Shown here: positions 3,325 through 22,493 of the stretch, in pieces
How positions within the stretch are numbered: position 1 is the first letter of the stretch
Layout of the letters: each line of letters starts with the position of its first letter
From: a virus
Length of the DNA: 23,979 bases
Reading direction: 5' to 3' (one strand)
IMG/VR virus record: IMGVR_UViG_3300023174_000625
Location: 1-23,979 of that record
Program-made: the position numbers and the translations under genes
Notes under the pieces: generated by a model
Seen by the model: only the letters and a program-made list of their open reading frames with translations
Database searches by the model: none
Told to the model about the DNA's origin: nothing

Positions 3325-4452
3325 ATGGCGTCTGCAATTACAGGCACTGGCCAACTCGCTGGTGCACCAACCGCTTACTCAGGTTCAAACTCAAGCCTGA
3401 ACCAAGCAATTCAAACAATCTGGTCAAAAGAAATTTTGTTCCAGGCAATGCCAATCCTCCGTTTCGAACAGTTTGCAGTAAAGAAGACTGAACTTGGTGT
3501 AGCACCAGGTCTTCGTGTTAACTTCCTTCGTTACAAGAACTTCGGTATCGATCCAACTCCGTTGACTGAAGGCGTTCGTATGACAACAAACGCACTCACA
3601 GCAGAGCAGATCGCTATCACAGTTGCTGAACACGGCTACGCAGTAGCAGTTTCAGAACTCCTACTTAACGCATCATTCGATGACGTTATGGCTTCTGCTT
3701 CACGTCTTCTTGGTCGCCACATGGCACAGTACCTCGACGTACAGGCACGCAACACACTTTCAGCAGCAACTTCTGCTGTATTCGGTTATGACCGCACTGG
3801 CCTCCAGGGTGTAAATGACTGGTACAACGAAGGAACTCCAGCATCTGGAATTTCAGCACTAGATGGTGACCACAAGTTGTCAACAGGCGCTGTAAAGGAT
3901 GCTGCTCTTACACTTGCTGGTAAGAACATCCCTCGCTTAGGTGAAACATATGTAATGTTCATCCACCCAAAGCAGTCACGTGACATTCGTTCGAACCCAG
4001 AGTTCATCGAAGTTACAAAGTACGCTGCTCCAGGTAACTTCATGCTCGGTGAAATCGGTCGTCTATACGACGTAGTATTCATCGAAACAACACAGGTTAA
4101 GTTGCTTGCGGCTTCTGGCTCATACACAACTTCAACTCTTGTTGGTGCTCCAGCATCTGCTGGCTCAATTCCTGTTAAGGCTAACACAGCCCCAGGTAAC
4201 GGTGGAAACCCAGAATCTGCAGATTACACAGCAGAAAAGGGTTACCTAACATCAGCAACAGGTAACACTGCAGATGCATACGAAGCAATCATGATTGGTG
4301 ACAACGCATTTGGTCACGCAATCTCTCTTCCAGTTGAACTCCGTGACGGTGGCGTTCTTGACTTCGGTCGTGAACACGCTCTTGCATGGTACGCAATCTG
4401 GGGCCTTGGTGTAATCACTGATCAAGCAATTGTGAAAGTTTATACCAATTAA
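3325..4452 (+). CDS. Major capsid protein, N4-gp56-like family
   Basis: This 375-residue protein forms the capsid shell. It matches the N4-gp56 family in layout: an N-terminal arm, an early helix (IQTIWSKEILFQAM, 29-42), a basic strand region (GLRVNFLRYKNF), the TEGV element at 81-84, then AEHGYAVAVSEL (101-112), which is the E-loop/spine region. A long helix with an amphipathic face (SRLLGRHMAQYLDVQARNTL) follows, and a late domain includes FIHPKQSRDIRSNPEF. The start has AGAAAGGA (3308-3315) upstream at good spacing. Codon use is very regular (many GTA, GCA, ACA), consistent with high expression. The scaffold lies immediately upstream and a strong hairpin follows. Confidence 0.92.
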   Translation: MASAITGTGQLAGAPTAYSGSNSSLNQAIQTIWSKEILFQAMPILRFEQFAVKKTELGVAPGLRVNFLRYKNFGIDPTPLTEGVRMTTNALTAEQIAITVAEHGYAVAVSELLLNASFDDVMASASRLLGRHMAQYLDVQARNTLSAATSAVFGYDRTGLQGVNDWYNEGTPASGISALDGDHKLSTGAVKDAALTLAGKNIPRLGETYVMFIHPKQSRDIRSNPEFIEVTKYAAPGNFMLGEIGRLYDVVFIETTQVKLLAASGSYTTSTLVGAPASAGSIPVKANTAPGNGGNPESADYTAEKGYLTSATGNTADAYEAIMIGDNAFGHAISLPVELRDGGVLDFGREHALAWYAIWGLGVITDQAIVKVYTN

Positions 4453-6662: not shown

Positions 6663-9600
6663 ATGGCAAGAAAATTTTTAACCCCAATTGATTTAGGCAA
6701 ACTTGAACTTCAAAATGCCCGAATTCAAAACCTTTCAACAGCACAGAGGCCAACCAACCCAGTCCAAGGTCAGATCTATTATGACACTGACGATAAGGTT
6801 GTAAAGACCTGGAATGGTACTGCGTGGATCAACGCAAGCCAAGGTACACAAGGTGTGCAAGGCACTGTCGGTTCACAAGGTACTGTTGGTGCTCAAGGTG
6901 CACAGGGAACGCTAGGTACTCAAGGTGCACAAGGAACTGTAGGTTCTCAAGGTACGCAAGGAACTGACGGCACACAGGGAACTCAAGGTACTGACGGAAC
7001 ACAAGGAACTCAAGGTACCGACGGAACTCAAGGTACTCAGGGAACTGACGGTACACAGGGTACCGAAGGACAGCAAGGTACCCAAGGTACCGACGGTACA
7101 CAAGGTACCCAAGGCACTGATGGTACACAGGGCACACAAGGTACTGACGGCACACAAGGTGTGCAAGGAACCGAAGGTCAACAAGGCGTTCAAGGCACTG
7201 AAGGACAGCAAGGTACACAAGGAACAGAAGGCGCCCAAGGAACACAGGGTACTGACGGTACTCAAGGTACCGAAGGATCACAGGGTGCACAAGGTGCTGA
7301 AGGTAACTTCGGTGGTATCACAGTTGTTTACAACTTTGACAACACTGTCACAATGTCAGACCCAGGCGACAACAATGCTCGTCTAAACAATGCTAACCCA
7401 ACTCTAGTTACACACCTGGCATTGGATGATAATCCTGCTGATGGTAACTATGACGTCTCTAACTTTTTACAGACAATCGATGACTCAACATCACCAATTA
7501 AGGGTCACGTAAAGGTATCTAGAAAATTTGATACTGCTACTTTTTACCTCTACACAATCTCTGGTGTTACAGACTCAGCACCAAACTGGTTTGATGTAGA
7601 AGTTGCTTATGTTTCTGGTCAGGGAGCATTTACTGACGGAGAAGAACTTCTCTTTACATTTGCTCGTACTGGTGACGTTGGTGCTCAAGGTACCCAAGGT
7701 ACTGTCGGTGCTCAAGGCGTTCAAGGCACTGTCGGTGCACAAGGAACTCAAGGCACACTAGGTTCACAAGGAACTCAAGGTGTACAAGGAGTTCAAGGTA
7801 CTGAAGGCCAGCAAGGAACTCAGGGCACCCAAGGTACTGTTGGATCACAAGGTACTCTTGGTACTCAAGGTGCAGTAGGTACTCAGGGTACAGTTGGTGC
7901 TCAGGGCGCTCAAGGAACTACTGGTACTCAGGGTGTACAAGGAACTCAAGGTACTCAAGGAGTTCAAGGTACTGAAGGCCAGCAAGGAGTCCAGGGAACT
8001 GAAGGACAACAAGGAACTCAAGGTTCTGAAGGTGCACAGGGTACTCAAGGAGTACAAGGCGCTGAAGGAACTCAAGGTACCGATGGAACCCAAGGTGCTA
8101 CTGGTACATTCGGTGGAGAAACTTTTGAGTACAACTACTTAACTAATACCGCAGACACAGACCCAAATGCAGGTAACTTTAAGTTTGACTCTACAACATT
8201 CTCATCTGTTACTGAACTCTACATCGACCCAATCGATGCAAACGCAACTAACATTACTTCTTTCCTACAGACTATTGATGATTCAACATCAGGTATCAAG
8301 GGAACTATTAAAGTAACGGATATTACTAATCCGCTTAACTATGCGTTCTTCCAAATTATTGGTACTCACAATGAAAATGGCGGAAACTATTTCACAGTTC
8401 CAGTCGCATTTGTTTCTGGATCACTATCACTTCTCAACAACGATAATGCATACCTAACATTTGCAAGAGTTGGTGACAAGGGTGACACTGGTGCTCAAGG
8501 TACTACTGGTGCACAGGGCGTACAAGGAACTGTTGGTTCTCAAGGTACACAAGGAACACTTGGAGCCCAAGGTACACAAGGAACCCAAGGCGTACAGGGA
8601 ACCCATGGTACACAGGGAGTCCAAGGCTCTGAAGGTACTCAGGGAGTTCAAGGAACTGAAGGTCAGCAAGGTACACAGGGTACCGATGGCACTCAAGGAA
8701 CCCAAGGTACAGATGGTACCCAGGGAACTCAAGGTACAGCAGCCCTCTGGAATTTTGCTGGCCCTTATAACGGCGGAGTTATCTATACCGAAGGTGATGT
8801 TGTTACCTACAACGGTCAAACTTGGTATCGCAAGATTTACGGTGCAGCAGGACACACACCAACAGAAGACACTTGGTGGACACTACTTGCCGCACAAGGC
8901 GTACAGGGAACTGAAGGCCAACAAGGTACACAAGGTACCGATGGCACTCAGGGTACTCAAGGTACAGACGGAACCCAGGGCGTACAGGGAACTGAAGGCC
9001 AGCAGGGTACCCAAGGTACAAACGGTACTCAAGGTGTTCAAGGTACAACTGGTACACAAGGTGTACAAGGACACTCAGACCGTTACAAGACAACCTCTAC
9101 AACTTCACGAGCAATTGCGGTAGCAAACAACGTAAGTTTTGTACTGGCTGATCCAGACCTGTCATACTCAGTTGGTCAGGATGTAGTAGTTGCTTACGAT
9201 GTAAACAACCACATGTCCGCAACTGTAGTCAGTTACACATCAGGCACTAATACTCTCGTTGTAAATGTTAACGACATCAAGGGCTCAGGAACATACGCTG
9301 TATGGTCAATCAACCTCGATGGTGCTACTGGTGTCCAAGGTACAACTGGTACTCAAGGTACACAGGGTACAGACGGTATACAAGGTCTTAACGGTGTTCA
9401 AGGTACACAGGGTACATCTGGTCAACTTGGAACCTACGCAGTAACTATCACTGGTGATTCAACCGATGGTGGAGCAACAGGAACTACCTCGTTCCCAGTT
9501 ACTCACAACCTCGGAACTACAGACATCATGGTCACAGTCTGGGATGCGGCTTCTAAGATGGAAGTTGTAACAGATGTAGCCTACGTAACTACTACCTCAG

Positions 9601-9665
9601 TAACGATTGGATTTGCAGTAGCACCAATCACAACTAAGTCTTACAGAGTGGTAGTCAAGGCTTAA
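6663..9665 (+). CDS. Large collagen-like tail fibre with globular modules
   Basis: This 1000-residue protein starts at ATG 6663 behind AAAGGAGA. Residues 1-58 are a fibre head domain ([35 protein letters not shown]) that usually attaches to the particle. Gly-X-Gln rods (about 59-214, 337-481, 612-694, 746-802, 892-919) alternate with globular modules. Two modules are copies of one repeated type (216-337 and 483-611). One is a CBM5/12-like module (696-745: [20 protein letters not shown] ... TEDTWWTLL). Another (803-892) has the form [12 protein letters not shown] ... [12 protein letters not shown]. The C-terminal beta domain (920-1000) contains [16 protein letters not shown], typical of fibre tips. 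The likely role is a trimeric receptor-binding fibre. The rods contain no proline. Confidence 0.9.
6838..9420 (+). repeat. Tandem 9-base Gly-X-Gln coding repeats, five blocks
   Basis: Blocks lie at about 6838-7302, 7677-8106, 8488-8736, 8895-9068 and 9325-9420. The unit is GGN-NNN-CAR, usually paired as Gly-Thr-Gln/Gly-Val-Gln, with Gly-Thr-Asp/Gly-Thr-Glu variants. Synonymous codons are varied from unit to unit (GGT/GGA/GGC, ACT/ACA/ACC, CAA/CAG), so exact DNA repeats stay short. The repeats generate long false reading frames on both strands. Confidence 0.9.
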
Positions 9666-9668
9666 TAC

Positions 9669-9884
9669 ATGAGCAAAAGAGCACTCGTCCCAGTTAACGT
9701 ATTGGCTAAGGCGTCAGCGCCCTCTGGCCAGTACGCTGGTGACGTGTACTACGATTCAACAGATACATCACTGTTTGTCTACACAGGCTCTGTGTGGAGT
9801 GCAGTAGGTAGCGGCTCTATCGATGGCGGAACGCCAACAAGTAATTACACAAGCAATCCTGTGGTAAATGGAGGAACTCCGTAA
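9669..9884 (+). CDS. Small fibre-associated protein
   Basis: This 71-residue protein starts four bases after the stop of the large fibre with no strong Shine-Dalgarno of its own, so it is likely translated by re-initiation. The core (SAPSGQYAGDVYYDSTDTSL, then FVYTGSVWSAVG) is the same small motif seen in the head domain of the upstream fibre ([10 protein letters not shown] ... WNGTAW), so it looks like a stand-alone fibre-head or adaptor. The tail is Gly/Ser/Thr/Asn-rich. Its TAA overlaps the next ATG (TAATG). It could be an adaptor joining the two giant fibres or a chaperone; neither is shown. Confidence 0.75.
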   Translation: MSKRALVPVNVLAKASAPSGQYAGDVYYDSTDTSLFVYTGSVWSAVGSGSIDGGTPTSNYTSNPVVNGGTP

Positions 9885-12800
9885 TGGCATCAAAGATTCA
9901 AGTTCGTCGTGGATCGTCTTCACAGTGGGACGCTGTCTCATCAGTAGTTCTATCTGAAGGTGAAATCGGTTTTGAAATCAATACTGGAAAATTCAAAATT
10001 GGTGATGGAACTTCTACTTGGGCCGCTCTTCCTTACTTCATTAATGGGAATGCAGTTGCTACACTCATTAGTGGAGCCGCATTAGACAACACAGATGATC
10101 TTCCACAAGGACTTACAAATCTTTACCACACAGTTCAACACACTTACGAAGCCATAACAAGTGGAACTCGTGACAACATCACCTTCGCTCTTCAAGGCGG
10201 AGCAATAAACGTATCAGTACCAACTGTTCAAGGAACTCAAGGTACACAGGGACCAAGCATCCAAGGCGTACAAGGAACTACAGGTACACAAGGAACCCTT
10301 GGTACCCAAGGTTCTCAAGGAACTGCAGGTTTTGTAGGTTCTAACGGAGCGCAAGGCACCCAAGGAACTCAAGGAGTTCAAGGTGTGCAGGGAGTTCAAG
10401 GAGTCCAAGGCGTACAAGGAACTACTGGTAGCCAAGGCGTACAAGGAATACAGGGCGTTCAAGGAGTTCAAGGCGTACAAGGACTGCAGGGTGTTCAAGG
10501 AACATTAGGCGCCCAAGGTGCGGCTGGTAACTTTGGTGGAGCGACCTTTGACTACACATTCAGCACAAGCACAACAGCGGCTGATCCAGGAACTGGAAAC
10601 ATCCGCTTTAATGCAACTCCTACTTCAGCAACTGCTATGTACATCGACAGTAGCAATGATGCTGCAACTGACATTTCAACTTTTCTAAACACAATCGGCG
10701 GATCAACATCTACTATCAAGGGACACTTCCGTGTATCCAAGAAGTTTGATGACAGCGTCTTTAAACTTTACACAATCTCATCTGTTACAGATAACACTGG
10801 TTGGTTTACAGTTAACTGTTCTTATGTATCAGGAAACGGAACACTATCTAACTCAGATGACATCGTAGTCACCTTTGCTCGCACTGGTGATAAGGGCGAT
10901 ACAGGTATCCAAGGTGTACAAGGACCTACTGGTACTCAAGGAACTCAAGGCACACAGGGCGTACAGGGTGTGCAAGGAGTCCAGGGAACTGAAGGACAAC
11001 AAGGAACTCAGGGAACACAAGGTACTCAAGGAACCCAGGGAACACTAGGAGCGCAAGGCGCCGTAGGTGCACAGGGCACTGTTGGTGCTCAGGGAACCCA
11101 AGGCACACAGGGTGTGCAGGGTGTGCAGGGAACAACTGGCACCCAAGGTACCCAGGGTACTCAAGGTACACAGGGAGTACAGGGAACTCTTGGAGCCACT
11201 GGTACTCAGGGAACTCTTGGTACTCAAGGTACTCAAGGTGTTATGGGTACATCTGGTGGTTCTACATCTAACTTTAACTACGTATTTGATGCAAATACTT
11301 CAGATGCAAAACCAGGTAGTGGTCAATTAAGACTTAATAATGCAACACAACCTTCTGCAACTTTTATCTATGTAGATCATCTCAACGACTCTGGTGTTGA
11401 TATTGATGTCTATTTGGGCCTCGTAAAACAATACGACAACATTATTATTCAGAAAAAAATTGATTCAAATGTTTACATTACATTCGAAGTTACTGGTTCA
11501 CCTACAGTTGTCTCTAACAGTTACGTAAAGATTCCAGTAACTAGAGTTGGCGATGGTGGTTCTGGCAACAACTCGTTTACTGGCGGAATGAACCTTGAAC
11601 TTGTTCTCTTTACAACTGGATTACAAGGAGCAGTTGGTGCACAGGGTGCAGTGGGTCCTCAAGGTACACAGGGTGTACAGGGCACCACTGGTACACAAGG
11701 TGTACAAGGAACTCAAGGTACTCAAGGCACCCAAGGCACCACAGGAGCACAGGGCACCACTGGTGCACAAGGAGCAACTGGTGCTCAAGGAACCCAGGGC
11801 ACACAGGGCACCACTGGTACACAAGGTGCTACAGGCTCACAGGGCGTGCAGGGTACACAAGGCGTACAGGGCACACAGGGAACTGTTGGCGCTCAAGGTG
11901 TACAGGGAGTTCAAGGCTTACAGGGTGTACAGGGTACTCTCGGTGTGCAGGGTGCTGCTGGTAACTTCGGCGGTGCATCATTTGACTACACCTACAGCAC
12001 AACTACAACTGCCTCAGATCCAGGTACTGGAAATGTTCGCTTTAACTCTTTGACTTTATCTTCTGCAACTTCTGTCTATCTTGATGCAAGCAATGACGCA
12101 GCCACAGATATCTCATCCTTCCTTAACACTATTGGAACATCGACCTCTACAATCAAGGGTCACTTCCGTATGTCAAAGAAGTATGACGATAATTCATTTG
12201 CGCTCTTTACAATCTCATCAGTAACAAACAACACTGGCTGGTTTACTGTAAGTGCATCTTACGTATCTGGCAATGGAACATTTGCAAACTCAGATGACAT
12301 TGTTATCACATTCGCCCGTACAGGTGACAAGGGTGACACTGGTACTCAGGGTGTACAAGGACCTACAGGAACTCAAGGCACACAGGGAACTCAAGGAACT
12401 CAGGGTACTCAAGGAACTACTGGAGCCCAGGGAACTACTGGAGCGCAGGGCACTCAAGGAACGCAGGGTACACAAGGCACCCAGGGTATCCAAGGTGGAT
12501 TTGCATTTGGACTAGGTACAGGTGTTCAGACCTTCTTAACCACACCTACATCTGCAAACCTTGCAACAGCACTCACAGATGAGACTGGTACTGGTGCTGC
12601 TGTGTTTGGTACTGACCCAACAATCTCTCTTCCAGTAATCAACAACATCAAACTCGGTTACTCAACTGTTGCAACAGCGGCAGGAACTACGACTCTTACC
12701 GCATCCAGCAATCGCCAACAACTATTTACTGGATCAACAACTCAAACAATCGTGTTACCAGTAACAAGCACTCTAGTAACTGGTGTTGGTTATGATATCG

Positions 12801-13144
12801 AGAATAACTCAACTGGCAACCTGACCATTAACTCCTCAGGTGGTAACTTAGTCGCAACAGTAATTCCTGGAGTAACAGCGCACATCATGTGTATTGGTAC
12901 TACTCTAACAACTGCGGCTGACTGGGATGCTGACTTTGAAGCATTTGGTACTTTGACAGGTACTGGAGCAAACGTACTTGGTACTGCACCAACTATCTCT
13001 AACCTAACCATCACAGGATCATTAACTGCAGGTGGCGGAACAGGTACTAACGGCTTCGTACTTACATCTACAGGATCTGGAACTCAGTGGGCTGCGGCTG
13101 CATCTGATGCAACTCCTACAGTGTTGATGCTAGGTGGAATGTAA
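9884..13144 (+). CDS. Giant collagen-like fibre with Mtd-type N-terminal domain
   Basis: This is a 1086-residue protein. Residues 1-55 (IQVRRGSSSQWDAV ... LSEGEIGFEINTGKFKIGDG) match the N-terminal domain of major tropism determinant/hyaluronidase-type fibre proteins. An LDNTDDLPQGLTNLYHT linker follows. Four Gly-X-Gln rods (about 113-214, 341-456, 578-692, 818-870) alternate with three globular modules (217-341, 457-578, 695-818). The first and third of these are near-identical copies, also related to those in the upstream fibre. The C-terminal part (871-1086) is a beta-rich tip with VFGTDPTISLPVINN and DADFEAFGTLTGTGAN. No diversity-generating cassette is near. Its stop abuts the stop of the convergent GT25 gene with no gap. 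Confidence 0.9.
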   Translation: MASKIQVRRGSSSQWDAVSSVVLSEGEIGFEINTGKFKIGDGTSTWAALPYFINGNAVATLISGAALDNTDDLPQGLTNLYHTVQHTYEAITSGTRDNITFALQGGAINVSVPTVQGTQGTQGPSIQGVQGTTGTQGTLGTQGSQGTAGFVGSNGAQGTQGTQGVQGVQGVQGVQGVQGTTGSQGVQGIQGVQGVQGVQGLQGVQGTLGAQGAAGNFGGATFDYTFSTSTTAADPGTGNIRFNATPTSATAMYIDSSNDAATDISTFLNTIGGSTSTIKGHFRVSKKFDDSVFKLYTISSVTDNTGWFTVNCSYVSGNGTLSNSDDIVVTFARTGDKGDTGIQGVQGPTGTQGTQGTQGVQGVQGVQGTEGQQGTQGTQGTQGTQGTLGAQGAVGAQGTVGAQGTQGTQGVQGVQGTTGTQGTQGTQGTQGVQGTLGATGTQGTLGTQGTQGVMGTSGGSTSNFNYVFDANTSDAKPGSGQLRLNNATQPSATFIYVDHLNDSGVDIDVYLGLVKQYDNIIIQKKIDSNVYITFEVTGSPTVVSNSYVKIPVTRVGDGGSGNNSFTGGMNLELVLFTTGLQGAVGAQGAVGPQGTQGVQGTTGTQGVQGTQGTQGTQGTTGAQGTTGAQGATGAQGTQGTQGTTGTQGATGSQGVQGTQGVQGTQGTVGAQGVQGVQGLQGVQGTLGVQGAAGNFGGASFDYTYSTTTTASDPGTGNVRFNSLTLSSATSVYLDASNDAATDISSFLNTIGTSTSTIKGHFRMSKKYDDNSFALFTISSVTNNTGWFTVSASYVSGNGTFANSDDIVITFARTGDKGDTGTQGVQGPTGTQGTQGTQGTQGTQGTTGAQGTTGAQGTQGTQGTQGTQGIQGGFAFGLGTGVQTFLTTPTSANLATALTDETGTGAAVFGTDPTISLPVINNIKLGYSTVATAAGTTTLTASSNRQQLFTGSTTQTIVLPVTSTLVTGVGYDIENNSTGNLTINSSGGNLVATVIPGVTAHIMCIGTTLTTAADWDADFEAFGTLTGTGANVLGTAPTISNLTITGSLTAGGGTGTNGFVLTSTGSGTQWAAAASDATPTVLMLGGM
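10222..12497 (+). repeat. Tandem Gly-X-Gln coding repeats, four blocks
   Basis: Blocks lie at about 10222-10530, 10905-11250, 11620-11962 and 12336-12497. They have the same 9-base unit as the upstream fibre, but with more Val at X (GVQGVQG runs in the first block). Proline is nearly absent, seen only in isolated GPS, GPT and GPQ triplets. The globular modules between them include two close copies (about 10532-10905 and 11966-12345). Confidence 0.88.
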
Positions 13145-13879
13145 TTAATTAAGTAGTTCAGTACTGCCACGATGTATCTGGCTGTACTGGGCTGCTTCTT
13201 GTAAAAATTTAATTGGGCGATATTTGCCTGGCTTTAGTGTGTAGGTAAAGAAAGTCTGCTTGTTATCTTCTTTCTTCATTCTAAAGTTAAAGATGTACCA
13301 ATCTACTGGGCAGTTAATTCCTCGTGACTCAATATCTGCAACCGCTTTGCGTGCTCCTGATTTACTGACCATGTAACCAGCACACGACCACTGCTGATAA
13401 GAAATGCAGACATTTTCTGCGCCTATAGTGTGCTGCTCTTCGTTGTACGCAAAGAGCGAATCATCAGGGACAAAGAACGAGAAGAAGTCCCAGTCAGCAG
13501 GTAACTCCCACATGTACTTCTCAACAACCATCTTGAAGTTCTTACTCATGACAATGTCATCTTCAAACAAGATCATGGTGTCGTAATCCGACTCTAAGAA
13601 CTTCTTGTATGCCAAGTAGTTACTGGCCCACACACCCACCACACCAGCACTAGGTGGAAATGTCTCACCTGGCTGGCAGTAATCTTCAACGGTATTGACC
13701 TTGAACTCTGGTCGTGTGTTTACAAAGTTCTCAACCTTATCAACGGTATTGAGATACATCGTAGGGGATCCTAGTCGTGGCAGAAAAGAAACGCCCTTGA
13801 GAATTCCTTCATAAGATTTATTACGAAGTTCATTTCCAGTATCAGTATGAAAGACTTCAAAGCAGGCATTACCTAGCAT
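13145..13879 (-). CDS. Glycosyltransferase family 25-like protein
   Basis: This 244-residue protein has the hallmarks of GT25 (LPS and procollagen sugar transferases). MYLNTVDKVENF lies near 41-52, SAGVVGVWASNYLAYKKFL at 77-95 is the equivalent of the family's G-x-x-G-c-x-x-S-H region, and the nucleotide-sugar/metal motif FEDDI is at 105-109. A later acidic motif, NCPVDWYIF, is at 189-197 (D193). ASN replaces the usual S-H, which is a departure from the family norm. It is the last gene of a minus-strand four-gene operon and overlaps the methyltransferase by 7 bases (ATGCTAG). It is cytoplasmic, with no signal peptide. The substrate is unknown; phage fibres and host surface glycan are both possible. 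Confidence 0.82.
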   Translation of the reverse strand: MLGNACFEVFHTDTGNELRNKSYEGILKGVSFLPRLGSPTMYLNTVDKVENFVNTRPEFKVNTVEDYCQPGETFPPSAGVVGVWASNYLAYKKFLESDYDTMILFEDDIVMSKNFKMVVEKYMWELPADWDFFSFFVPDDSLFAYNEEQHTIGAENVCISYQQWSCAGYMVSKSGARKAVADIESRGINCPVDWYIFNFRMKKEDNKQTFFTYTLKPGKYRPIKFLQEAAQYSQIHRGSTELLN

Positions 13880-14409
13880 TTAACAAACCACATCTGATAG
13901 CCATCCTCTAGGCAGATAACCTCTCCTTCACAGATAGAGAAGAAGGCATCAATGCCCCTCTTAGGCTCTAGGAATTCCTTACCGCCCTCTGTCCAGCCGT
14001 AATCATCAAAGGCGATAACTCCGCCCTTCTCAAGGACTTTGAAGGCATTAAGGCCATCTAGGGCAGTCTGTAGTGCTGTGTGATCTCCATCGATGTAGAT
14101 GAAGTTATAGGTTTTGGTATTGGTGTTGAAGAACTCATCGCTAGTCATCTTGTGCTTGATGACTCTAGGGTCATCGCTAAATCGTGAGTCGTAGTACTGC
14201 TCGACAGATGAGAAGTCTAATGAGAAGTGCTGATCTTCTTGGCTACCTTCCCAGGTGTCCACATCATCGATCGTAATAATCTCTCGATTATTTAGTAGCC
14301 ACTGTGTGGCATCACCTGTGTAGGTGCCGATCTGTAGAGCACGGATAGGCTCACGAGGACATTTGCGATCAAAGTATGGGGATACATTTCTAAACCAATT
14401 AGGAAACAT
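13873..14409 (-). CDS. SAM-dependent methyltransferase (Methyltransf_24 type)
   Basis: This 178-residue protein has a Rossmann methyltransferase pattern. Motif I is LQIGTYTGD (25-33), an acidic motif II is ITIDDVDTW (45-53), the diagnostic IDGDH is at 106-110, and GGVIAFDDYGW (129-139) carries the post-IV Asp pair. The IDGDH and FDDYGW pair is typical of class I O-methyltransferases linked to sugar or glycan modification (Methyltransf_24, related to TylF/CmcI types). It starts one base after the TPR gene's stop (TAATATG) without a clear Shine-Dalgarno, so it depends on coupling. Its probable target is the hydroxyl of a sugar made or added by its neighbours. The target is inferred. Confidence 0.85.
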   Translation of the reverse strand: MFPNWFRNVSPYFDRKCPREPIRALQIGTYTGDATQWLLNNREIITIDDVDTWEGSQEDQHFSLDFSSVEQYYDSRFSDDPRVIKHKMTSDEFFNTNTKTYNFIYIDGDHTALQTALDGLNAFKVLEKGGVIAFDDYGWTEGGKEFLEPKRGIDAFFSICEGEVICLEDGYQMWFVKC

Positions 14410-14410
14410 A

Positions 14411-14971
14411 TTAGAACAACTTCAAGTTGTTGATGCAGCCATTGACATACTCTTGCGACATCTCAACATTATCTAGTAGATGATCAAACAATTCTCTACT
14501 CTCCTCTTTACGGCCTAGCCACCAGCCCGCTACAGCCTTCTCAAATAGTAGGACATATGGTCCGTTGTACTCCACGTACACAGGCAGCGGATTGTTATAG
14601 CCAGCGATAGTGTGAACCAGACCAATCTCTGCAAAGGTGTATGCCTTCTGCCACTCCTTATTGCGCTCATGGATTCTGGAAATTAAGAAGTACGCCTCTG
14701 GTCTTCCAGGAAGCAGAGTGATAGCGTGCAGGATCGTCTGATAGACAGTCGCATTTCTATCCCCCTGCTTTGAGAAACATAGAGCCATTCGTAGCAGCGA
14801 TGTGTAGGCAATGATCGGATGGGTCTTGTATCCACGGTCTGCCGCTCTTAGATAGAAGCCAGCAGCAGATGCAAACTGCCCCTGATCAAAGTAAGCATTA
14901 GCAAGGGCAAAGTTCTTCTCTGGATTGTAGGAATCAAAAGACACATCTACTGCAAGATCTTTAATTGACAT
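14411..14971 (-). CDS. TPR-repeat protein of the sugar cassette
   Basis: This is a 186-residue protein. I chose ATG 14971 because GAGGAGG lies 9 bases upstream on the minus strand; the longer TTG start at 14989 would sit on that site itself. It is all-helical with several TPR-like units: NFALANAYFDQGQFASAAGF near 21-40, then SLLRMALCFSKQGDRNATVY, a LLPGRPEAYFLISRIHERNK unit, and AVAGWWLGRKEESRELFDHL. This type of helical domain is often fused to or next to GT2 glycosyltransferases in phages and bacteria, where it probably binds a partner or acceptor protein. Here it stands alone between the propeller and the methyltransferase. It overlaps the upstream gene by 11 bases. Confidence 0.75.
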   Translation of the reverse strand: MSIKDLAVDVSFDSYNPEKNFALANAYFDQGQFASAAGFYLRAADRGYKTHPIIAYTSLLRMALCFSKQGDRNATVYQTILHAITLLPGRPEAYFLISRIHERNKEWQKAYTFAEIGLVHTIAGYNNPLPVYVEYNGPYVLLFEKAVAGWWLGRKEESRELFDHLLDNVEMSQEYVNGCINNLKLF

Positions 14972-15965
14972 ATGTCTTTGCCTCCTCAATCAATTCATTA
15001 ACAACACTGTTAGGGACTTCAAGCACAAACGCTGAGTTATCTTGAACACCAAAACTCACCAGCATATTGTCATTTATAATCGCTGCTCCTACGCAGAACT
15101 CAATAGGAGTATCCATAAAAGCAAACTCCTTGCTGAGTCCAACAAAATTAAATTCTTTATCCCAGACAATCAAACGATGGCGATATGTAGAGTCTTTTTG
15201 ATTTAAATAGTTTCTCCACAGTTTTACTTCATGCGTAATGCAGAGATAGTAATCGCCCCACGCAATAACGTGAGAACCACCACGCTGGTCAATAGGTGGA
15301 CGAGGAACGTTGTCATTAACAACGACTTGTTTTGTTTCTGGTTCATTAGGATTTGACCACACCACCTCTGTAGGCATAGCCCACTTCACAAAGTGATACG
15401 GCTTATCAAGCACGGGCATCCAGTTCTTCTCACAATACGAAGTGGCCTCATGCAGCGGTGCTGGAACTCTGACTCGCTGAACCTCCTTGACAGTCCAGTT
15501 CTCCTTGTCAATCTCTACCTTGCTGTACTCCATACGTCCAATGCCATTGGTCGTGGTATCACGACGAACACCGATCATGTAGTAGTCGCCATCCCACTGA
15601 ACGACACGAGCATCTTCTAGTCCAACAAACTCCCAGATAGGTTTGTGCAACTCCATCATCTCCACCTTGGTGTAGTTGATGACGTTGTAATCTTTATCTA
15701 GGCGACAGAGGAAGTTGTTGGTGACAAGGCGCTGATCTTTCTCTGGGTGCAGATAAGTGAGAGGCCCCCAAGGGCTAAAGAAGCGCTTGTCATTCTCGCT
15801 GATATATAGCGTGTAGTTAACTTGACGAAGGTTAACTAAGATGTCTCCATCATCATCAATATAGACCGAGGGATTCATTAATCCTAGGCCGTTACTGAGA
15901 GAGTTGGGTATGATTATGGGCGCTAATTTTCCGCCCTGAGAAACCGATTTTTGCACCAAATTCAT
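14961..15965 (-). CDS. GH130-like five-bladed beta-propeller protein
   Basis: This 334-residue protein is built of strand repeats. Motifs in order are MNPSVYIDDDGDILVNLRQ (30-48), GLEDARVVQWDGDYYMIGVR (115-134), EKNWMPVLDKPYHFVKW (179-195), RGGSHVIAWGDYYLCITHEV (228-247), and FCVGAAII with LVSFGVQDNSAF (290-313). The GLEDARV element followed by W-D-G-x-Y-Y resembles the 'G-x-E-D-x-R' motif of GH130 mannoside phosphorylases and related GH43/32 propellers. No signal peptide is visible, so it acts in the cytoplasm or as a particle component. It is the first gene of the minus-strand operon. Its start lacks a clear Shine-Dalgarno. It may be an enzyme or a non-catalytic sugar-binding propeller. Confidence 0.7.
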   Translation of the reverse strand: MNLVQKSVSQGGKLAPIIIPNSLSNGLGLMNPSVYIDDDGDILVNLRQVNYTLYISENDKRFFSPWGPLTYLHPEKDQRLVTNNFLCRLDKDYNVINYTKVEMMELHKPIWEFVGLEDARVVQWDGDYYMIGVRRDTTTNGIGRMEYSKVEIDKENWTVKEVQRVRVPAPLHEATSYCEKNWMPVLDKPYHFVKWAMPTEVVWSNPNEPETKQVVVNDNVPRPPIDQRGGSHVIAWGDYYLCITHEVKLWRNYLNQKDSTYRHRLIVWDKEFNFVGLSKEFAFMDTPIEFCVGAAIINDNMLVSFGVQDNSAFVLEVPNSVVNELIEEAKTYVN

Positions 15966-16855: not shown

Positions 16856-17173
16856 ATGGCTGTAACAACTAAGAACCTCGCTAGAGCAGCGGCATCGTTA
16901 ACCACGACCACAGTTCTCTATACTGTACCTGCTTCTACCACAACAGTAGTTACTGGTATTGCCGTAACTAATACTGCAGGATCTGCAGGCACATTCACTT
17001 TGGCTATGGGTCCATCTGGTTCACAGGTCGCTCTTCATACCACAACAGCAATCGCCGCAAATACTACGGTCTACATTGACTGCAAGTTAGTACTATCAGC
17101 AACTAACACCATTACTGGTGGCGCATCAGCAACAACAATTAACTTTAATATTAACGGAGTGGAGATAGCGTAA
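16856..17173 (+). CDS. Small beta-rich fibre/tail protein, copy 2
   Basis: This 105-residue protein starts at ATG 16856 behind AAAAGGAC. It is a divergent paralogue of the protein at 16035: the same T-x-L-Y-T-V-P-A-S-T-x-T-V-V start of the first strands, a TFTLAMGPSG strand pair, and an ending of INFNINGVEIA against LSFSAFGSEIS. Its TAA overlaps the start of the glycine-rich gene at 17173 (TAATG), so the pair is co-translated. It could be an adaptor or cap for the glycine-rich protein; this is inferred from the coupling. Confidence 0.8.
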   Translation: MAVTTKNLARAAASLTTTTVLYTVPASTTTVVTGIAVTNTAGSAGTFTLAMGPSGSQVALHTTTAIAANTTVYIDCKLVLSATNTITGGASATTINFNINGVEIA

Positions 17174-17919
17174 TGGCATTAACAGTCTTCCCTACACCTA
17201 GTGCAGGGCGCACGACTGCGCCTTCATTACAAAACACTATTACTTCATCACAACTTGTTACAATTCCCTCAACAGTAGATACAGTTTATTTTATTGCGGT
17301 AGGTGGTGGCGGTGCTGGGTCAAACGGTGCGGAATATGGCGGCAGTGGTGCAGGTGGCGGTGGTGGCGGTGGTGGTTTTGTAAATATTGGTAGCATTACA
17401 GGAGCGCAACTTTATAGAAATTTACCAATAGTAATTGGTGCTGGTGGCGTTGCAAATGGTGGTCTCGGAGGAACAACTTATGTAGGTCCATCAACAATTG
17501 GTTTTGCTGCTAATGGTGGTGCTGGCGGTATTGGTGCAGATGGATTTCCAGGTCCATTTTTTGGCGCAGGTGGTGGAGGAGTAAGTGGTGGTGGTCGAGG
17601 TGGTGGTGGTGCTGGTGGCGCAAATGGAGCAGACGGCGCTGGCAGTTTTTCACAAGGTCGCATTTCTTACGGTCAAGGAATGGGTAACCCTTATATAACT
17701 TTCAAAGTTCCTGGTGGTGGTGGCGGCGGCGGAAGTAATAATGGCGGTGGCGGTGGAACAACAAACGGCACTACTTCATCAGGCGGTACAGGTGGCGGTG
17801 CAAATTCTGGCGGAAACGCTGGTGCTTTAGGTCAAGGCGGTGGTGGCGGACACGGAAATTCTGCTGGCGGTCAAAGTGGCGGCAATGGTGGCGCTGGTGT
17901 TGTTTATCTTTACTACTAA
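17173..17919 (+). CDS. Glycine-rich fibre tip/adhesin-like protein
   Basis: This 248-residue protein has a short polar N-terminus (1-35), a strand (VDTVYFIAVGGGG), then about 190 residues in which Gly dominates, with runs of up to eight Gly broken by short strands such as VIGAGGV and ITFKVPGGG. It ends in a strand (GGAGVVYLYY). This strand / polyglycine / strand layout is the phage 'glycine-rich domain' family. T-even-type gp38 adhesins fold glycine-rich motifs into polyglycine-II helix sandwiches, so a receptor-binding tip is a reasonable reading. It is coupled to the small protein upstream. The exact role is inferred. Confidence 0.82.
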   Translation: MALTVFPTPSAGRTTAPSLQNTITSSQLVTIPSTVDTVYFIAVGGGGAGSNGAEYGGSGAGGGGGGGGFVNIGSITGAQLYRNLPIVIGAGGVANGGLGGTTYVGPSTIGFAANGGAGGIGADGFPGPFFGAGGGGVSGGGRGGGGAGGANGADGAGSFSQGRISYGQGMGNPYITFKVPGGGGGGGSNNGGGGGTTNGTTSSGGTGGGANSGGNAGALGQGGGGGHGNSAGGQSGGNGGAGVVYLYY

Positions 17920-17931
17920 AAAGGATTAAAA

Positions 17932-18783
17932 ATGGCAATTTCACAAGTACCTGCAGCAAGTTCAAGCGTTGCTCCAATTTTGCGTACCGCAGTCACTACA
18001 ACTGACGCTAACTACGCAATTGGTCAAATTGCTTGTTGGATTGCGGTAGTTGGTGGCGGAGGTGGTGGCGGTGCTGGCGCTAATGGCTCAACCGTTGCAG
18101 GAGGTGGAGGCGGTGGTGGCGCTGGCGGTAGAGTTTCTTTTGGCGTATATGTAAATTATGTAACTCCTATAAGTATAACTATTGGTAATGCTGGAACTGC
18201 TGGTGCAACAACTGGTGCTGCTGGCGGAACTGGTGGTACTACCTCTGTTGTCTTCACTAACGGTACAATTACTTCCGCAGGTGGTGCTGGCGGTGCTGGC
18301 GCTTCTACTACAAACGGCGGTAATGGTGCTGCTGGAGGTGTTGGCGCTTCGGGCGGCGGCGGTGGTGGCGGTGGTGGTGGAACTTCCAATGGTTTTGGTG
18401 GTGTTGGTGGAAACGGTGGAACAGGAGCAGGGGGAGGCTCAACTGCTACGGCTTCAACTGGTTCTTCTTCAGGAACTGCTGGGTCAGGTGGAGGCGCAGG
18501 AACTGCAATTATGTTTGGAAATACAGGCGGCGGCGCAGGTGGTGGCGGCGGCGCAGGTCAAACAGCAGGTTCTTTAGGTGCTGGTGGAACAGGTGGAACA
18601 AATGCAACTGGGTCTGGCGGTAATGGTGGCTCAGGTGGCGCAGTAAATACCGCTGGTGTTGTTGGTACCGCAGGAAGCGGTTATGGTAATGGCGGTGGCG
18701 GTGGTGGTGGCGGTGGTGCTACAACTGGAACATTTGGAGCAGGAGGTGCAGGTGCAACAGGAGCAGTCCTTATCTACTGGTAA
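17932..18783 (+). CDS. Glycine-rich fibre tip/adhesin-like protein, second copy
   Basis: This 283-residue protein starts at ATG 17932 behind AAAGGA. It has the same layout as the gene before it: a polar start (MAISQVPAASSSVAPILRTA), a strand (IACWIAVVGGGG), a long Gly-rich body with polyglycine runs of up to nine, a short beta segment (VNYVTPISITIGNAGT), and a terminal strand (TGAVLIYW). It differs in being richer in Ala and Thr. It lies directly before a short protein of the MAHF-like family. A polyglycine-II adhesin fold is the likely structure by analogy. Confidence 0.82.
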   Translation: MAISQVPAASSSVAPILRTAVTTTDANYAIGQIACWIAVVGGGGGGGAGANGSTVAGGGGGGGAGGRVSFGVYVNYVTPISITIGNAGTAGATTGAAGGTGGTTSVVFTNGTITSAGGAGGAGASTTNGGNGAAGGVGASGGGGGGGGGGTSNGFGGVGGNGGTGAGGGSTATASTGSSSGTAGSGGGAGTAIMFGNTGGGAGGGGGAGQTAGSLGAGGTGGTNATGSGGNGGSGGAVNTAGVVGTAGSGYGNGGGGGGGGGATTGTFGAGGAGATGAVLIYW

Positions 18784-18814
18784 TTTACCTGACATAAACG
18801 ACCTACCATACAAA

Positions 18815-18970
18815 ATGTATGCAGTAGTAGAGAAAGGGATTGTACAAGGGTATGTTTGGGAAACCGAGACTTATCCAAAAACAAAAGATACTGAATTTGT
18901 CCTTATGACTTTTGAAAATTCACCTGCCTATACTCAGGGCACTTATAAAGATGGTAAATTTTATCCATAA
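18815..18970 (+). CDS. Small protein of the fibre-accessory family, variant A
   Basis: This is a 51-residue protein. ATG 18815 is the only sensible start, since the frame upstream is the shadow of the glycine-rich gene. No Shine-Dalgarno is visible and the gap to that gene is 31 bases. It opens MYAVVEKGIVQGYV, like the family's M-x-x-F-A-x-x-x-x-x-I-V-x-x-V start, and ends SPAYTQGTYKDGKFYP, closely matching the next gene's NPAYIDGTYDGSVF. It is probably a shortened member of the family. The function is unknown; constant pairing with glycine-rich genes suggests an accessory or chaperone. Confidence 0.7.
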   Translation: MYAVVEKGIVQGYVWETETYPKTKDTEFVLMTFENSPAYTQGTYKDGKFYP

Positions 18971-18984
18971 AGAAAGGGTTCTAA

Positions 18985-19173
18985 ATGCCTAATTTTGCAG
19001 TACTTAAAGAAGGAATAGTTACAAATATAATTGTTGCTGAATCAAAATCAGTAGCAGAAGAAGTAACAGGCTTGATCTGTGTTGAATATACAGATACCAA
19101 CCCTGCTTATATTGATGGAACATATGATGGGTCAGTGTTTACTGCACCTATTGTAGAAAAATTATCAGAGTAA
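18985..19173 (+). CDS. Small protein of the fibre-accessory family, variant B
   Basis: This 62-residue protein starts at ATG 18985 with AGAAAGGG (18971-18978) upstream. It opens MPNFAVLKEGIVTNIIVAES, then has CVEYTDTNPAYIDGTYDGSVF. It belongs with the gene before it and more distantly with those at 20527 and 22493. Variants A and B lie in tandem and could be an old duplication. No membrane segment or catalytic motif is present. Confidence 0.75.
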   Translation: MPNFAVLKEGIVTNIIVAESKSVAEEVTGLICVEYTDTNPAYIDGTYDGSVFTAPIVEKLSE

Positions 19174-19241
19174 GTTGTATATTTGAGCATTTGGTTAAAA
19201 TTAAGTGCACTACAATGAGAGCCGACAGAATAGGTAGATAG

Positions 19242-19787
19242 ATGACAAAAGCAAGAGATCTAGCGACAGCAGGTTCGGCCTTTGCAGCCGTAGACGCCAC
19301 AGAGTTAGGCTATCTAGATGGCGTTACTTCTGCTATCCAGACACAGATTAACACTAAGGCTAACTCTTCTTTGCCTACCCTTACAGGGCCAGTTTTAATT
19401 GCTCCTGAAGAGCGTATGACTGTCTCTGCTACTGCTGCTACTGGAACAGTAAACTTTGATGCATCTACTCAGGGCATTTTATATTACACAACCAACGCTT
19501 CAGGTAACTGGACACTAAACGTCCGTGGCACATCAGGTGCAACACTAAATAGCATCTTGGCAACAAATGATTCAATTACAATATCATTCTTTGTTACACA
19601 GGGCTCTACCGCTTACTACATGACTGCCTTCACCATTGATGGTAACGCAGTAACACCTAAATACTCTGGCGGTACAGCACCTTCTGCTGGTAACGCTTCA
19701 TCAATCGATATCTACTCATTTACAATTATTAAGACAGCATCAGCAACCTTCACCGTCCTTGGTGCAGGCCCAGTAAAGTATGCGTAA
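19242..19787 (+). CDS. Phage tail fibre protein (ELGYLDGVTSAIQTQ type)
   Basis: This 181-residue protein begins MTKARDLATAGSAFAAVDAT, then ELGYLDGVTSAIQTQINTKA, a stalk motif I know from many cyanophage and other fibre proteins. Residues about 48-181 form a beta-rich domain (TVSATAATGTVNFDASTQGI ... ASSIDIYSFTIIKTASATFT) typical of fibre tips in which a shared ligand or trimer interface is built from strands. The Shine-Dalgarno is weak (TAGGTAG). A 68-base gap upstream is the second largest in the right half and could hold a promoter, although no good pair of hexamers is seen. Confidence 0.83.
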   Translation: MTKARDLATAGSAFAAVDATELGYLDGVTSAIQTQINTKANSSLPTLTGPVLIAPEERMTVSATAATGTVNFDASTQGILYYTTNASGNWTLNVRGTSGATLNSILATNDSITISFFVTQGSTAYYMTAFTIDGNAVTPKYSGGTAPSAGNASSIDIYSFTIIKTASATFTVLGAGPVKYA

Positions 19788-19801
19788 AGGCGGCCCAATA
19801 A

Positions 19802-20527
19802 ATGAGTCCTCTATTTTCTCCAGTATCAGCAGGTGGTATAGGTAAAGCAACAGTTACTGCTACCACTGGCTCCCCTACTGTAGACACATCATCACGTGCT
19901 GGTAAGACTATCTACAAGTTTACTGGCTCTGGTTCTATAACTGTCGGTACTGCTGGTACTGCAGAAATTCTTGTAATTGCAGGTGGGGGTGGAACTGCTG
20001 GTAACAATGCTGGTGGCGGAGGTGCTGGTGGATTACTCTCAATTGTTTCGGCTTATTTACCATCTGGTTCAAACACGGTTGTGGTTGGGGCGGGTGGTGC
20101 GGGATTTAATGATGGCACAAGAAGTGGCGCAAGAAACGGGTTTGCTTCACGGCTAGGTAATTATTATGCAGTCGGCGGTGGTGGTAGTGGTCAAAGTTCT
20201 CCATCAAATACTGGACAAGATGGTGGCTCTGGTGGCGGCGGGCCTTTCGGCGGTGGAAGTGGTACATCAGGACAAGGTAACGCTGGAACTAACAACGGCG
20301 CATCAGGTTGGGGTGGCGGTGGCTCTGGAGCAGCAGCCACCAGTGCTACTGGTGGCGCTGGTACAGCAAACTCAATTACAGGCACATCTGTTACATACGC
20401 TGCTGGTGGTAATGCAACTGGCGCAACAGATGGTTCTGCAAATACTGGCAATGGCGCATCGGGAAGCACCGCCAGCCTTGTTAATAATACTGGTGGTTCA
20501 GGTTATGTAGTGGTGGTGATTGGATAA
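19802..20527 (+). CDS. Glycine-rich fibre tip/adhesin-like protein, third copy
   Basis: This 241-residue protein has an N-terminal beta region (TVTATTGSPTVDTSSRAG, then TIYKFTGSGSITVGTAGTAE). The family strand EILVIAGGGG follows, then about 150 Gly-rich residues including VVVGAGGAGFNDG and YYAVGGGGSGQ, the signature ITGTSVTYAAGGNA, and a C-terminal strand GGSGYVVVVIG. The ending matches those at 20781 and the start strand is shared with the copies at 20781 and 22795. The TAA overlaps the ATG of the small protein at 20527. The adhesin reading rests on analogy with known glycine-rich phage adhesins. Confidence 0.82.
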   Translation: MSPLFSPVSAGGIGKATVTATTGSPTVDTSSRAGKTIYKFTGSGSITVGTAGTAEILVIAGGGGTAGNNAGGGGAGGLLSIVSAYLPSGSNTVVVGAGGAGFNDGTRSGARNGFASRLGNYYAVGGGGSGQSSPSNTGQDGGSGGGGPFGGGSGTSGQGNAGTNNGASGWGGGGSGAAATSATGGAGTANSITGTSVTYAAGGNATGATDGSANTGNGASGSTASLVNNTGGSGYVVVVIG

Positions 20528-20778
20528 TGGCACACTTTGCAAGAATAGAAGACAACATCGTACGTGAAGTCATTGTTGTAAACAATGCAGTCATTACTGA
20601 TGAAAAAGGAAAAGAACAAGAATCTTTGGGCGTTGCATTTTGCAAGTCATTGTTCGGTGAAGACACCAACTGGGTTCAGACATCTTATAATGGATCATTC
20701 CGTGGCAAGTACGCAGGATCAGGCGATAAATACGACGCCGAATTAGATGAATTTGTAAGCCCAATTTCAGAGGAGTAA
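20527..20778 (+). CDS. Small protein of the fibre-accessory family, variant C
   Basis: This 83-residue protein is coupled to the glycine-rich gene by TAATG. It opens MAHFARIEDNIVREVIVVNN and ends WVQTSYNGSFRGKYAGSGD, then KYDAELDEFVSPI. This is a widespread small phage protein that I know from fibre regions of aquatic phages and have no function for. It shares QTSYN-type and Y-A-G-x-G-x-x-Y-x-x-E-L-D-x-F motifs with the protein at 22493. It is acidic and soluble. Strict pairing with glycine-rich genes suggests it caps, folds or attaches them. Confidence 0.85.
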   Translation: MAHFARIEDNIVREVIVVNNAVITDEKGKEQESLGVAFCKSLFGEDTNWVQTSYNGSFRGKYAGSGDKYDAELDEFVSPISEE

Positions 20779-20780
20779 AC

Positions 20781-22493
20781 ATGCCAGACAGCAAGTCCCG
20801 TGGTGTGAGCAACCTCCCTGTTGCTATACCAGACATTCCTGACGCCCCAACAGTGAGCGCTACAAATGTTGGGACTTCTCGTGCCTATAATGATGGCGCA
20901 GCAACTGTCACGTTCTCATCTCCTACTGGTGGACGTCCTTCTTCTTACTCGATCACTACATCTCCTAGTACTACAACAACGACTGCGACTACAAGTCCCG
21001 TAACTCTTACAGGTCTATCTAGCGCTACCTCGTATACCGCAACAGTAACGCCCTCAAATATTAGCGCCACAGGAGCGGCTACAACTTCTTCTTCTTTCAC
21101 AGCAACCACAGTCCCACAGAACCCAACAGTAGGTACACCTACAGTTGCAACTGGCCAGTCTTACACAGGCAGCGCCACAGTCTCTGTGCCATTTACTGCT
21201 GGGGCTACTGGCGGCTCAAGCATCACTGGCTATACAGTTACATCATCTTCTGGTAGCACTAACACTGGCGCATCAAGCCCTATATCTATAGCCAGTGAGA
21301 CTGTGGGTGTGGCTCGTACCTATACAGTTACCGCAACAAACGCCAATGGCACATCTACCGCATCTTCTGCCTCTGCATCTACAACACCATCTTCTGTTCC
21401 ACAGGCACCAACTATCGGTACTGTTAGTGTTACAAACTCAACAACGGTGTCTATCCCGTTCACTGCTGGTGCTACTGGTGGCTCATCTATAACTTCTTAC
21501 ACGGCTACATCTAGCCCGTCTATTGCTTTATCTGTTTCTGGTACAACAACTCCACTAACAGTTACTGGAACATTTGCACTTAATACTGCTTACACGTTCA
21601 CCATTGCTGCAGTTAACGCAAACGGTACTTCATCTGCTTCATCTTCATCAAACTCAATAACTCCAAACTTTGCAACTATTGCTGAAGTTCTTGTTATTGC
21701 TGGTGGTGGAGGTGGTTCAGGTGGTGCTGGTACTGGTGGTGGCGGTGCTGGTGGATATAGGACTAACGCATCGTTTCAATTACCTTCTTCATTTACAGTT
21801 ACAGTTGGCGGCGGCGGAACTTCTGCATCTGGCGGTGCTGCGGGTGGAGTTGGAAGTACTAGCACTCTTAGCACAATTTCATCAAGTGGAGGTGGTGGAG
21901 GCGGTGCTTCAAATACAGTAGGAAATAACGGCGGTTCAGGCGGTGGCGGTTCTGGTGATGGTGGCGCTGGCGGCTATGCAGTAGCGGGAGGTTCTGGAAA
22001 CTCTGGAAGTTATTCTCCAGTTGAAGGTTATGCAGGAGGTAGCGGATGGTCAAGTTCTAACTCTGGTGGTGGCGGTGGAGGTGGGTCTACTGGTGTTGGA
22101 GCAAATGCCTCAAACGGTGTAGGCGGTAATGGTGGAAGTGGTACATCGAGTTCTATTACTGGAAGTGCGGTAACTCGTGCTGGCGGTGGTGGCGGTGGTG
22201 TTAAACTAAATGGTTCTACTGCTGGTACTGCGACTGGTGGCGGTGGTGCAGGTGGAGTTAACAACGTAGGAAGTGCTGCAACCGTAAACACTGGAGGCGG
22301 TGGAGGCGGTTCTGGAAACAACACCGTTGCTGGTGGTACAGGTGGTTCAGGTGTCGTAATTATTGCTTACCCAACTTCTTACGCAGCACTTACTACCATT
22401 GCAGCAGGACTAACCTACTCAGTATCAACTGTATCTAGATCAGGTTATAGAGTTTATACATTCACAGCAGGAACAGGAACGGTGACAGTTTGA
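20781..22493 (+). CDS. Fibronectin type III and glycine-rich fibre protein
   Basis: This 570-residue protein starts at ATG 20781 with GAGGAG in the end of the previous gene. Residues about 20-297 hold three fibronectin type III domains, each ending in a strand such as SYTATVTPSNISATGAATTS or TYTVTATNANGTSTASSASA. Residues about 300-523 are a glycine-rich body opened by EVLVIAGGGGGSGG and closed by GGTGGSGVVIIAYPTSY. The C-terminal part (524-570) is a small strand pair (YRVYTFTAGTGTVTV). FN3 arrays in phages commonly bind carbohydrate or extend a tip. It is the largest glycine-rich copy in the window, followed by its small partner with a TGATG overlap. Confidence 0.86.
   Translation: MPDSKSRGVSNLPVAIPDIPDAPTVSATNVGTSRAYNDGAATVTFSSPTGGRPSSYSITTSPSTTTTTATTSPVTLTGLSSATSYTATVTPSNISATGAATTSSSFTATTVPQNPTVGTPTVATGQSYTGSATVSVPFTAGATGGSSITGYTVTSSSGSTNTGASSPISIASETVGVARTYTVTATNANGTSTASSASASTTPSSVPQAPTIGTVSVTNSTTVSIPFTAGATGGSSITSYTATSSPSIALSVSGTTTPLTVTGTFALNTAYTFTIAAVNANGTSSASSSSNSITPNFATIAEVLVIAGGGGGSGGAGTGGGGAGGYRTNASFQLPSSFTVTVGGGGTSASGGAAGGVGSTSTLSTISSSGGGGGGASNTVGNNGGSGGGGSGDGGAGGYAVAGGSGNSGSYSPVEGYAGGSGWSSSNSGGGGGGGSTGVGANASNGVGGNGGSGTSSSITGSAVTRAGGGGGGVKLNGSTAGTATGGGGAGGVNNVGSAATVNTGGGGGGSGNNTVAGGTGGSGVVIIAYPTSYAALTTIAAGLTYSVSTVSRSGYRVYTFTAGTGTVTV

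Follow-up and report, generated by a model that had tools for sequence, protein, structure and literature searches.

A phage propeller–TPR cassette associated with proline-free collagen-like fibres and its proposed role in fibre glycosylation

A minus-strand cassette inside a collagen-like fibre block

The window, by which we mean the whole 23,979-base stretch analysed, is a viral fragment from a lake virus of bacteria. Portal and capsid genes are followed by a block of collagen-like fibre genes, within which a cassette of four genes lies on the opposite strand (Table 1). By capsid, the nearest named relatives are the Streptomyces phages BRock, LuckySocke, Alone3, GiJojo and pSt2308 (61–63% identity), and comparison of the cassette with the phage collection at nucleotide level returned one short match only. 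The 1,000-residue fibre contains a CBM5/12-like insert (a weak match, residues 702–740), and more fibre-like and glycine-rich proteins are encoded downstream of the cassette, which spans 13145–15965.

Table 1. Genes and features of the window
Feature	Position	Strand	Basis or remark
Portal	650–2386		Gene order, start of window
Capsid	3325–4452		After portal
Short collagen-like protein, 186 aa	6089–6649	+	ORF list, domain search
Collagen-like fibre, 1000 aa, proline-free Gly-X-Gln rods	6663–9665	+	ORF list, domain search
Small ORF, 71 aa, separating the two large fibres	9669–9884	+	ORF list
Collagen-like fibre, 1086 aa, proline-free Gly-X-Gln rods	9884–13144	+	Stop abuts GT25 stop
Convergent stop codons with 0 nt between them: TAA of the fibre gene, next to it that of GT25, read as TTA on the + strand	13142–13147
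GT25 glycosyltransferase, 244 aa, swappable module, FEDD metal/nucleotide-sugar motif	13145–13879	-	Pfam, profile, fold
SAM methyltransferase, Methyltransf_24 type, 178 aa, swappable module	13873–14409	-	Pfam, alignment
TPR protein, 186 aa from ATG, constant propeller partner, proposed acceptor scaffold	14411–14971	-	Pfam, pairing, fusions
Five-bladed GH130/GT108-like propeller, 334 aa, predicted glycosyltransferase or phosphorylase, cassette core	14961–15965	-	Fold, motif

The initial annotation saw no other minus-strand genes, and the ORF list of the window shows no further convincing one. The four cassette genes are transcribed in the order propeller, TPR, methyltransferase, GT25, with operon-like spacing: propeller and TPR overlap by 11 nt and methyltransferase and GT25 by 7 nt, but a 1-nt gap separates TPR from methyltransferase, so that the earlier term ‘overlapping operon’ does not fit this pair. 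An alternative TPR start, a TTG at 14989, would give a protein of 192 aa. The last cassette gene does end exactly where the 1,086-residue fibre gene ends (13144/13145), with 0 nt between the fibre stop (13142–13144) and the GT25 stop (13145–13147). The motifs FEDDI, IDGDH and GLEDARV, already noticed in the first reading, are all present, and FEDD, IDG.H and G.ED are kept in relatives.

The placement of the last protein in GT25 stood up to Pfam, PDB-profile and fold tests. It matched PF01755 with E=2e-9 (38 bits against a cut-off of 24; profile positions 65–196 of 199), and its F105-E106-D107-D108 motif was invariant in 12 relatives. Its sequence profile matched solved GT25 enzymes, mimivirus R655 and procollagen galactosyltransferase 1, and Foldseek returned COLGALT1, a bacterial GT25 beta-1,4-galactosyltransferase and R655 (E 2e-6 to 5e-5), for a model of pLDDT 62.8 with low confidence over 93/244 residues. 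The methyltransferase matched Methyltransf_24 (PF13578) with 49.8 bits (cut-off 26.3; E=7e-13) and the TPR protein matched TPR_2 with 32.4 bits (cut-off 27; E=7e-8). Among viral contigs, scans found 139 relatives of GT25 and 73 of the methyltransferase.

The propeller, its TPR partner and their variable neighbours

The propeller scored 18.2 bits against Pfam GH130 (PF04041), below the cut-off of 26, and we therefore do not file it as a GH130 member. Neither its sequence profile nor that of the methyltransferase found a PDB sequence at E<=0.01, and the propeller fold was identified by fold search rather than by sequence profile. The top PDB matches of its AF2 model (pLDDT 82.1) in Foldseek were GH130 beta-mannoside phosphorylases and Leishmania GDP-mannose-dependent MPT proteins of family GT108 (E ~1e-9, TM about 0.5–0.6). 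Within the GLEDxR motif, D118 was invariant in 15 relatives and aligned to the catalytic Asp of GLEDPR in 9fj8, an alignment with E=0.2 on its own. The predicted fold and this catalytic Asp place the propeller in the GH130/GT108 fold group, whose two families have a common fold and mechanism (PMC8950772). The first reading, ‘beta-propeller’, was correct about the fold and missed the GH130/GT108-like enzyme nature that Foldseek and the GLEDxR motif bring out. The same fold is also found in hydrolases and phosphorylases, and transferase activity is not readable from it.

Relatives of the propeller occur in at least 597 viral stretches. A scan of ~85,000 cellular genomes gave just 6 matches, all on assembled bin or MAG contigs, which leaves a cellular origin unsupported; the propeller is almost absent from cellular genomes and nearly confined to viruses.

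Propeller and TPR were together in nearly every locus examined, and they also occur as a single polypeptide in either order, as propeller–TPR and TPR–propeller fusions. Around this pair the other genes and domains vary. Among 59 diverse propeller-partner TPR proteins there were further matches to FkbM (16), GT2 (12), DUF6445 (12), Methyltransf_24 (8), GT25 (7), GT17 (6) and radical SAM (3), and in the window’s own lineage an ATP-grasp ligase sometimes sits between methyltransferase and GT25, or propeller and TPR are separated by an HNH endonuclease. Judged from this variation, the conserved core is the propeller–TPR pair, with GT25 and the methyltransferase as swappable modules, GT25 being a finishing one. 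The initial annotation had centred the cassette on GT25; we rejected GT25 as the gene that links cassette to fibres, since across the wider family other partners can take its place and the linking core is propeller plus TPR. That the TPR protein may present the acceptor is helped by the propeller–TPR fusions and by TPR fused to glycosyltransferase or methyltransferase domains.

Association with proline-free Gly-X-Gln rods

Co-occurrence of GT25 with collagen-like fibres, which the initial annotation had singled out for a survey of related phages, was found in 64 of the 66 distinct viral loci with enough sequence: collagen rods lie at most 2.5 kb beyond the GT25 stop, at a median distance of 65 bp, on a gene that converges with GT25 in 60 loci and on one that runs the same way in 4. 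The rods of the two exceptions, L053 and L116, lie farther away, still in the locus. As a GT25 lineage could just inherit its gene order, independent tests of the association were made, in which habitat or lineage confounding is lessened rather than eliminated and the records are fragments.

Among the viral records listed, the propeller was found in 31/50 with GTQ-pattern rods, in 0/45 with Gly-Pro-X-pattern rods and in 2/50 of a sample of Gly-X-Y rods not selected by type, both of them proline-poor Gly-X-Gln. Pooling the 141 rod records listed, and calling a record Gly-X-Gln when P was below 0.1 and Gln in Y at least 0.3, we found the propeller in 32/51 Gly-X-Gln records against 0/90 others (Fisher ~1e-18), in a table dominated by the GTQ-selected set and built from samples that are not random. 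The remaining 19/51 Gly-X-Gln records were without propeller.

The reverse test gave the same pairing: loci fetched with a cyanophage propeller had rods within 10 kb in 39/80 cases, against 2/119 for control loci fetched with one arbitrary 15-mer, both proline-rich and without propeller. When propellers were clustered at 70% identity, 36/51 clusters had proline-poor rods in the locus. The pairing recurs in two unrelated cyanophages with other backbones than that of the window: DSL-LC02 (Kyanoviridae) has a collagen-like protein, the propeller and a TPR–FkbM protein side by side, and the Synechococcus phage S-SCSM2R, whose recorded host is WH7803, has the propeller–TPR pair with Gly-X-Gln rods 9 kb off, the rod protein lying at 173718–176633 of its record. 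The WhiB-bearing DSL-LC01 likewise has collagen and a distant propeller. Streptomyces phage BRock, the nearest cultured relative tested (capsid 62%), has neither. The propeller is thus strongly associated with proline-free Gly-X-Gln rods, and the link between cassette and fibres put forward at the outset is well supported by comparative genomics, running through propeller and TPR rather than through GT25.

Of 20 re-tested propeller contigs without rods in the fetched stretch, 9 had collagen elsewhere and 11 gave no collagen match. Collagen-lacking fragments may be incomplete, or the acceptor may differ in those phages. Some rod-less propellers adjoin other Thr/Gly-rich fibre-like proteins (L546, L507 and L514); at least one, L515, does not.

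In the window’s rods (307 triplets), 53% of X positions are Thr and 65% of Y positions are Gln. They were described at first as Thr-rich and free of Lys; the former is right and the latter wrong, as 3 Lys occur in these triplets. Hydroxylysine, the acceptor of the procollagen-galactosyltransferase subset of GT25, has little counterpart in rods with so few Lys, and none of the ten window proteins that were domain-scanned matched a lysyl hydroxylase. In the rods of loci selected by propeller and not by rods, GTQ was the commonest triplet (19.5%), and among the Gly-X-Gln rods listed the propeller accompanied 29/37 with Thr at or above 15% and 3/14 below (p=0.0003), which makes the Thr of Gly-Thr-Gln the likeliest acceptor candidate. 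The early suggestion of O-linkage on Thr gains from this bias within Gly-X-Gln rods, but Thr-richness as sole determinant was rejected, as the propeller was found in 0/31 listed records with Thr-rich rods of other types (a subset of the 90). At L525, GNQGFQ rods without Thr lie 830 bp from the propeller, which means that an adjacent rod need not contain Thr; the acceptor there may be Asn, Ser or Gln, or may lie in the fibre outside its collagen part.

Proposed fibre glycosylation, rival readings and known systems

Gene content, conserved folds and motifs, adjacency and the specific Gly-X-Gln association were observed directly, and they make it fairly probable, in our judgement, that the cassette is a phage glycan-building module that decorates the phage’s own proline-free Gly-X-Gln collagen-like fibres. 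We infer the fibres to be the acceptor, and likewise which residue and which sugars are involved, how the steps follow one another and what the phage gains, as follows. The TPR protein would bind newly made fibre chains in the cytoplasm of the infected cell. Propeller and GT25 would transfer sugars, the first most likely onto the Thr of Gly-Thr-Gln, with the propeller’s sugar probably of beta-mannosyl type and that of GT25 probably of galactosyl or glucosyl type; the methyltransferase would then O-methylate the glycan as a cap. With a shared propeller–TPR core and finishing enzymes swapped among phages (GT25, GT17, GT2, FkbM and Methyltransf_24 methyltransferases, radical SAM, DUF6445 and ATP-grasp), the fibre glycan would be specific to each phage. 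It might stabilise a triple helix that has neither proline nor hydroxyproline, or shield or tune receptor binding.

The cassette could instead alter a host surface glycan, blocking superinfection or keeping new virions from adhering to debris, with its proximity to fibres reflecting a common host-recognition island; we regard this as rather unlikely. This is how glycosyltransferases from the hypervariable, fibre-rich parts of pelagimyophage genomes are read by their authors (PMC7029224), and host-wall modification has been proposed for Nanopelagicales phages (PMC10202952). Moreover, LPS transferases belong to GT25, and some propeller cassettes, such as that of L515, are not beside fibres. Actinobacteria are without LPS. 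WhiB genes were found in 11/20 window-type or related IMG/VR contigs tested, in 10/13 of those above 40 kb and in 9/10 above 50 kb. Since WhiB is restricted to Actinobacteriota and serves as a marker of actinophages (PMC10202952), the hosts of window-type phages are probably Actinobacteriota. LPS modification, the initial annotation’s own alternative as a barrier to superinfection, is weakened by this result and was down-weighted; wall glycans other than LPS are possible targets. Of the membrane partners of GtrABC seroconversion (GtrA/GtrB flippase and undecaprenyl-phosphate transferase), none was matched by any of the four cassette proteins (0/4), and host-glycan modification predicts no link to one rod chemistry that excludes Pro-containing or other Thr-rich rods.

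That link might arise without biochemistry, if the propeller–TPR module and Gly-X-Gln fibres were merely exchanged together within a variable island of aquatic phages. Lakes and sea are the source of the named relatives, most phages that combine the two features live in water, recombination is concentrated in fibre islands (PMC10202952) and the samples of rod records are not random. We nonetheless think such hitch-hiking improbable, as the association extends over 51 clusters of propellers and more than one backbone, in either orientation, and the propeller is in 0/90 listed records with other rod types. A different target for glycosylation and methylation by the cassette, either phage DNA or a virion protein other than the fibres, is very improbable. 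Phage glycosyltransferases do modify DNA, and in mycobacteriophages they act on capsids and tail tubes (Freeman et al. 2023; Pyle et al. 2024, as related in PMC12619734), but a DNA base-modification gene was found in 0/10 window proteins scanned, and an association with one rod type is not what such targets predict.

Glycosyltransferases in phage genomes are usually ascribed to modification of DNA or of the host envelope. With at least 597 viral propeller relatives that track one viral collagen class, fibre self-glycosylation becomes directly testable. It bears on collagen triple-helix stability without proline or hydroxyproline, and on receptor-binding fibre variation in phages of abundant freshwater actinobacteria and cyanobacteria. 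A broader form of fibre decoration is possible, though on balance doubtful: a widespread, modular and phage-specific system in which propeller and TPR scaffold would prime the Thr of Gly-Thr-Gln, exchangeable modules would finish the glycan, and sugars would replace hydroxyproline. If true, viruses of bacteria would gain their first collagen-modifying pathway and the GH130/GT108 propeller fold its first use in protein glycosylation. A search of an open-access library found no report that ties a propeller cassette of GH130/GT108-like type to collagen-like fibres of phages, and the Dishui Lake paper does not discuss the pairing of propeller cassette and fibre.

Virus-encoded collagen glycosylation is known in mimivirus, where virus enzymes (L230, R699 and putatively R655) likewise act, or are proposed to act, on viral collagen-like proteins (PMC9546862), and R655 is among the top sequence and fold matches of the window’s GT25. 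Mimivirus uses hydroxylysine, whereas the window’s rods are almost without Lys or Pro and its scanned proteins include no lysyl hydroxylase; unlike the mimivirus system, the cassette is built round a GH130/GT108-like propeller and its TPR partner. In the passages of PMC12619734 on Freeman et al. 2023, mycobacteriophage glycosyltransferases likewise modify the phage’s own virion proteins, but the targets described there are capsid and tail tube, with C-terminal sites and without collagen rods. The mannosyltransferase-phosphorylases of GT108/GH130 (Leishmania MPT, Teth514_1788) resemble the phage propeller in their fold and in the catalytic Asp of GLED(P/A)R; the phage protein, of predicted function, has ~12–17% identity to them over the structural alignment, lies below the Pfam GH130 cut-off, is nearly virus-confined and is paired with TPR. 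Human COLGALT1 has the GT25 domain in common with the window’s enzyme, with profile and fold matches; there the acceptor is hydroxylysine, only the GT25 half corresponds, and sequence likeness is weak (profile E about 1e-3). The repeats of BclA, a collagen-like spore glycoprotein, are Pro-containing GPT, with Thr in Y. BclA belongs to the bacterial exosporium, whereas the window encodes a phage fibre with Thr in X and Gln in Y; the glycans of BclA are thought to aid triple-helix stability through hydration (PMC8968730).

Additional genes in related cassettes

Some of the related cassettes contain an additional ATP-grasp ligase (~281 amino acids), from which the glycan could receive an amino acid or acyl group. 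In cyanophage-type cassettes, the TPR protein often occurs with a DUF6445/2OG-oxygenase-like protein, either fused to it or encoded next after it, which is possibly a hydroxylase acting on the fibre or the glycan. The HNH gene found within the conserved core pair probably encodes a homing endonuclease.

Additional genes at loci carrying relatives of the cassette genes (locus-internal coordinates)
Gene product	Coordinates	Position
ATP-grasp ligase	L015:3314-4159; L016:7169-8011; L110:10081-10926; also similar loci	methyltransferase/GT25 interval
DUF6445/2OG-oxygenase-like protein	L188:15962-17827; L189:18109-18702; L546:15378-15974	
HNH endonuclease	L006:4052-4663; L041:1978-2589; L166:6838-7452	inserted, propeller/TPR interval

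At locus L514, a larger island (0.6-9.6 kb and 10.9-17.6 kb), annotated by eye from sequence, places a propeller amid sulfotransferase-like, GT25-like and further apparent sugar genes, and adjoins a 1146-residue protein with 202 Thr.

Methyltransferase relatives and collagen

Close relatives of the window methyltransferase (55-60%) were found on three large contigs (L176, L177 and L178). Searches of the whole L177 and L178 contigs revealed no collagen in either and, for the propeller, a weak fragment in L178 only; the methyltransferase by itself is therefore not linked to collagen.

Fibres in the window

Within the collagen-like fibre at 6663-9665, residues 702-740 form a CBM5/12 chitin-binding-like insert, a weak match under the Pfam cut-off. 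The stretch downstream of the cassette (17173-22493) encodes several likely adhesins or fibre tips: these proteins are rich in glycine (Gly_rich_2), and one of them has fn3 domains.
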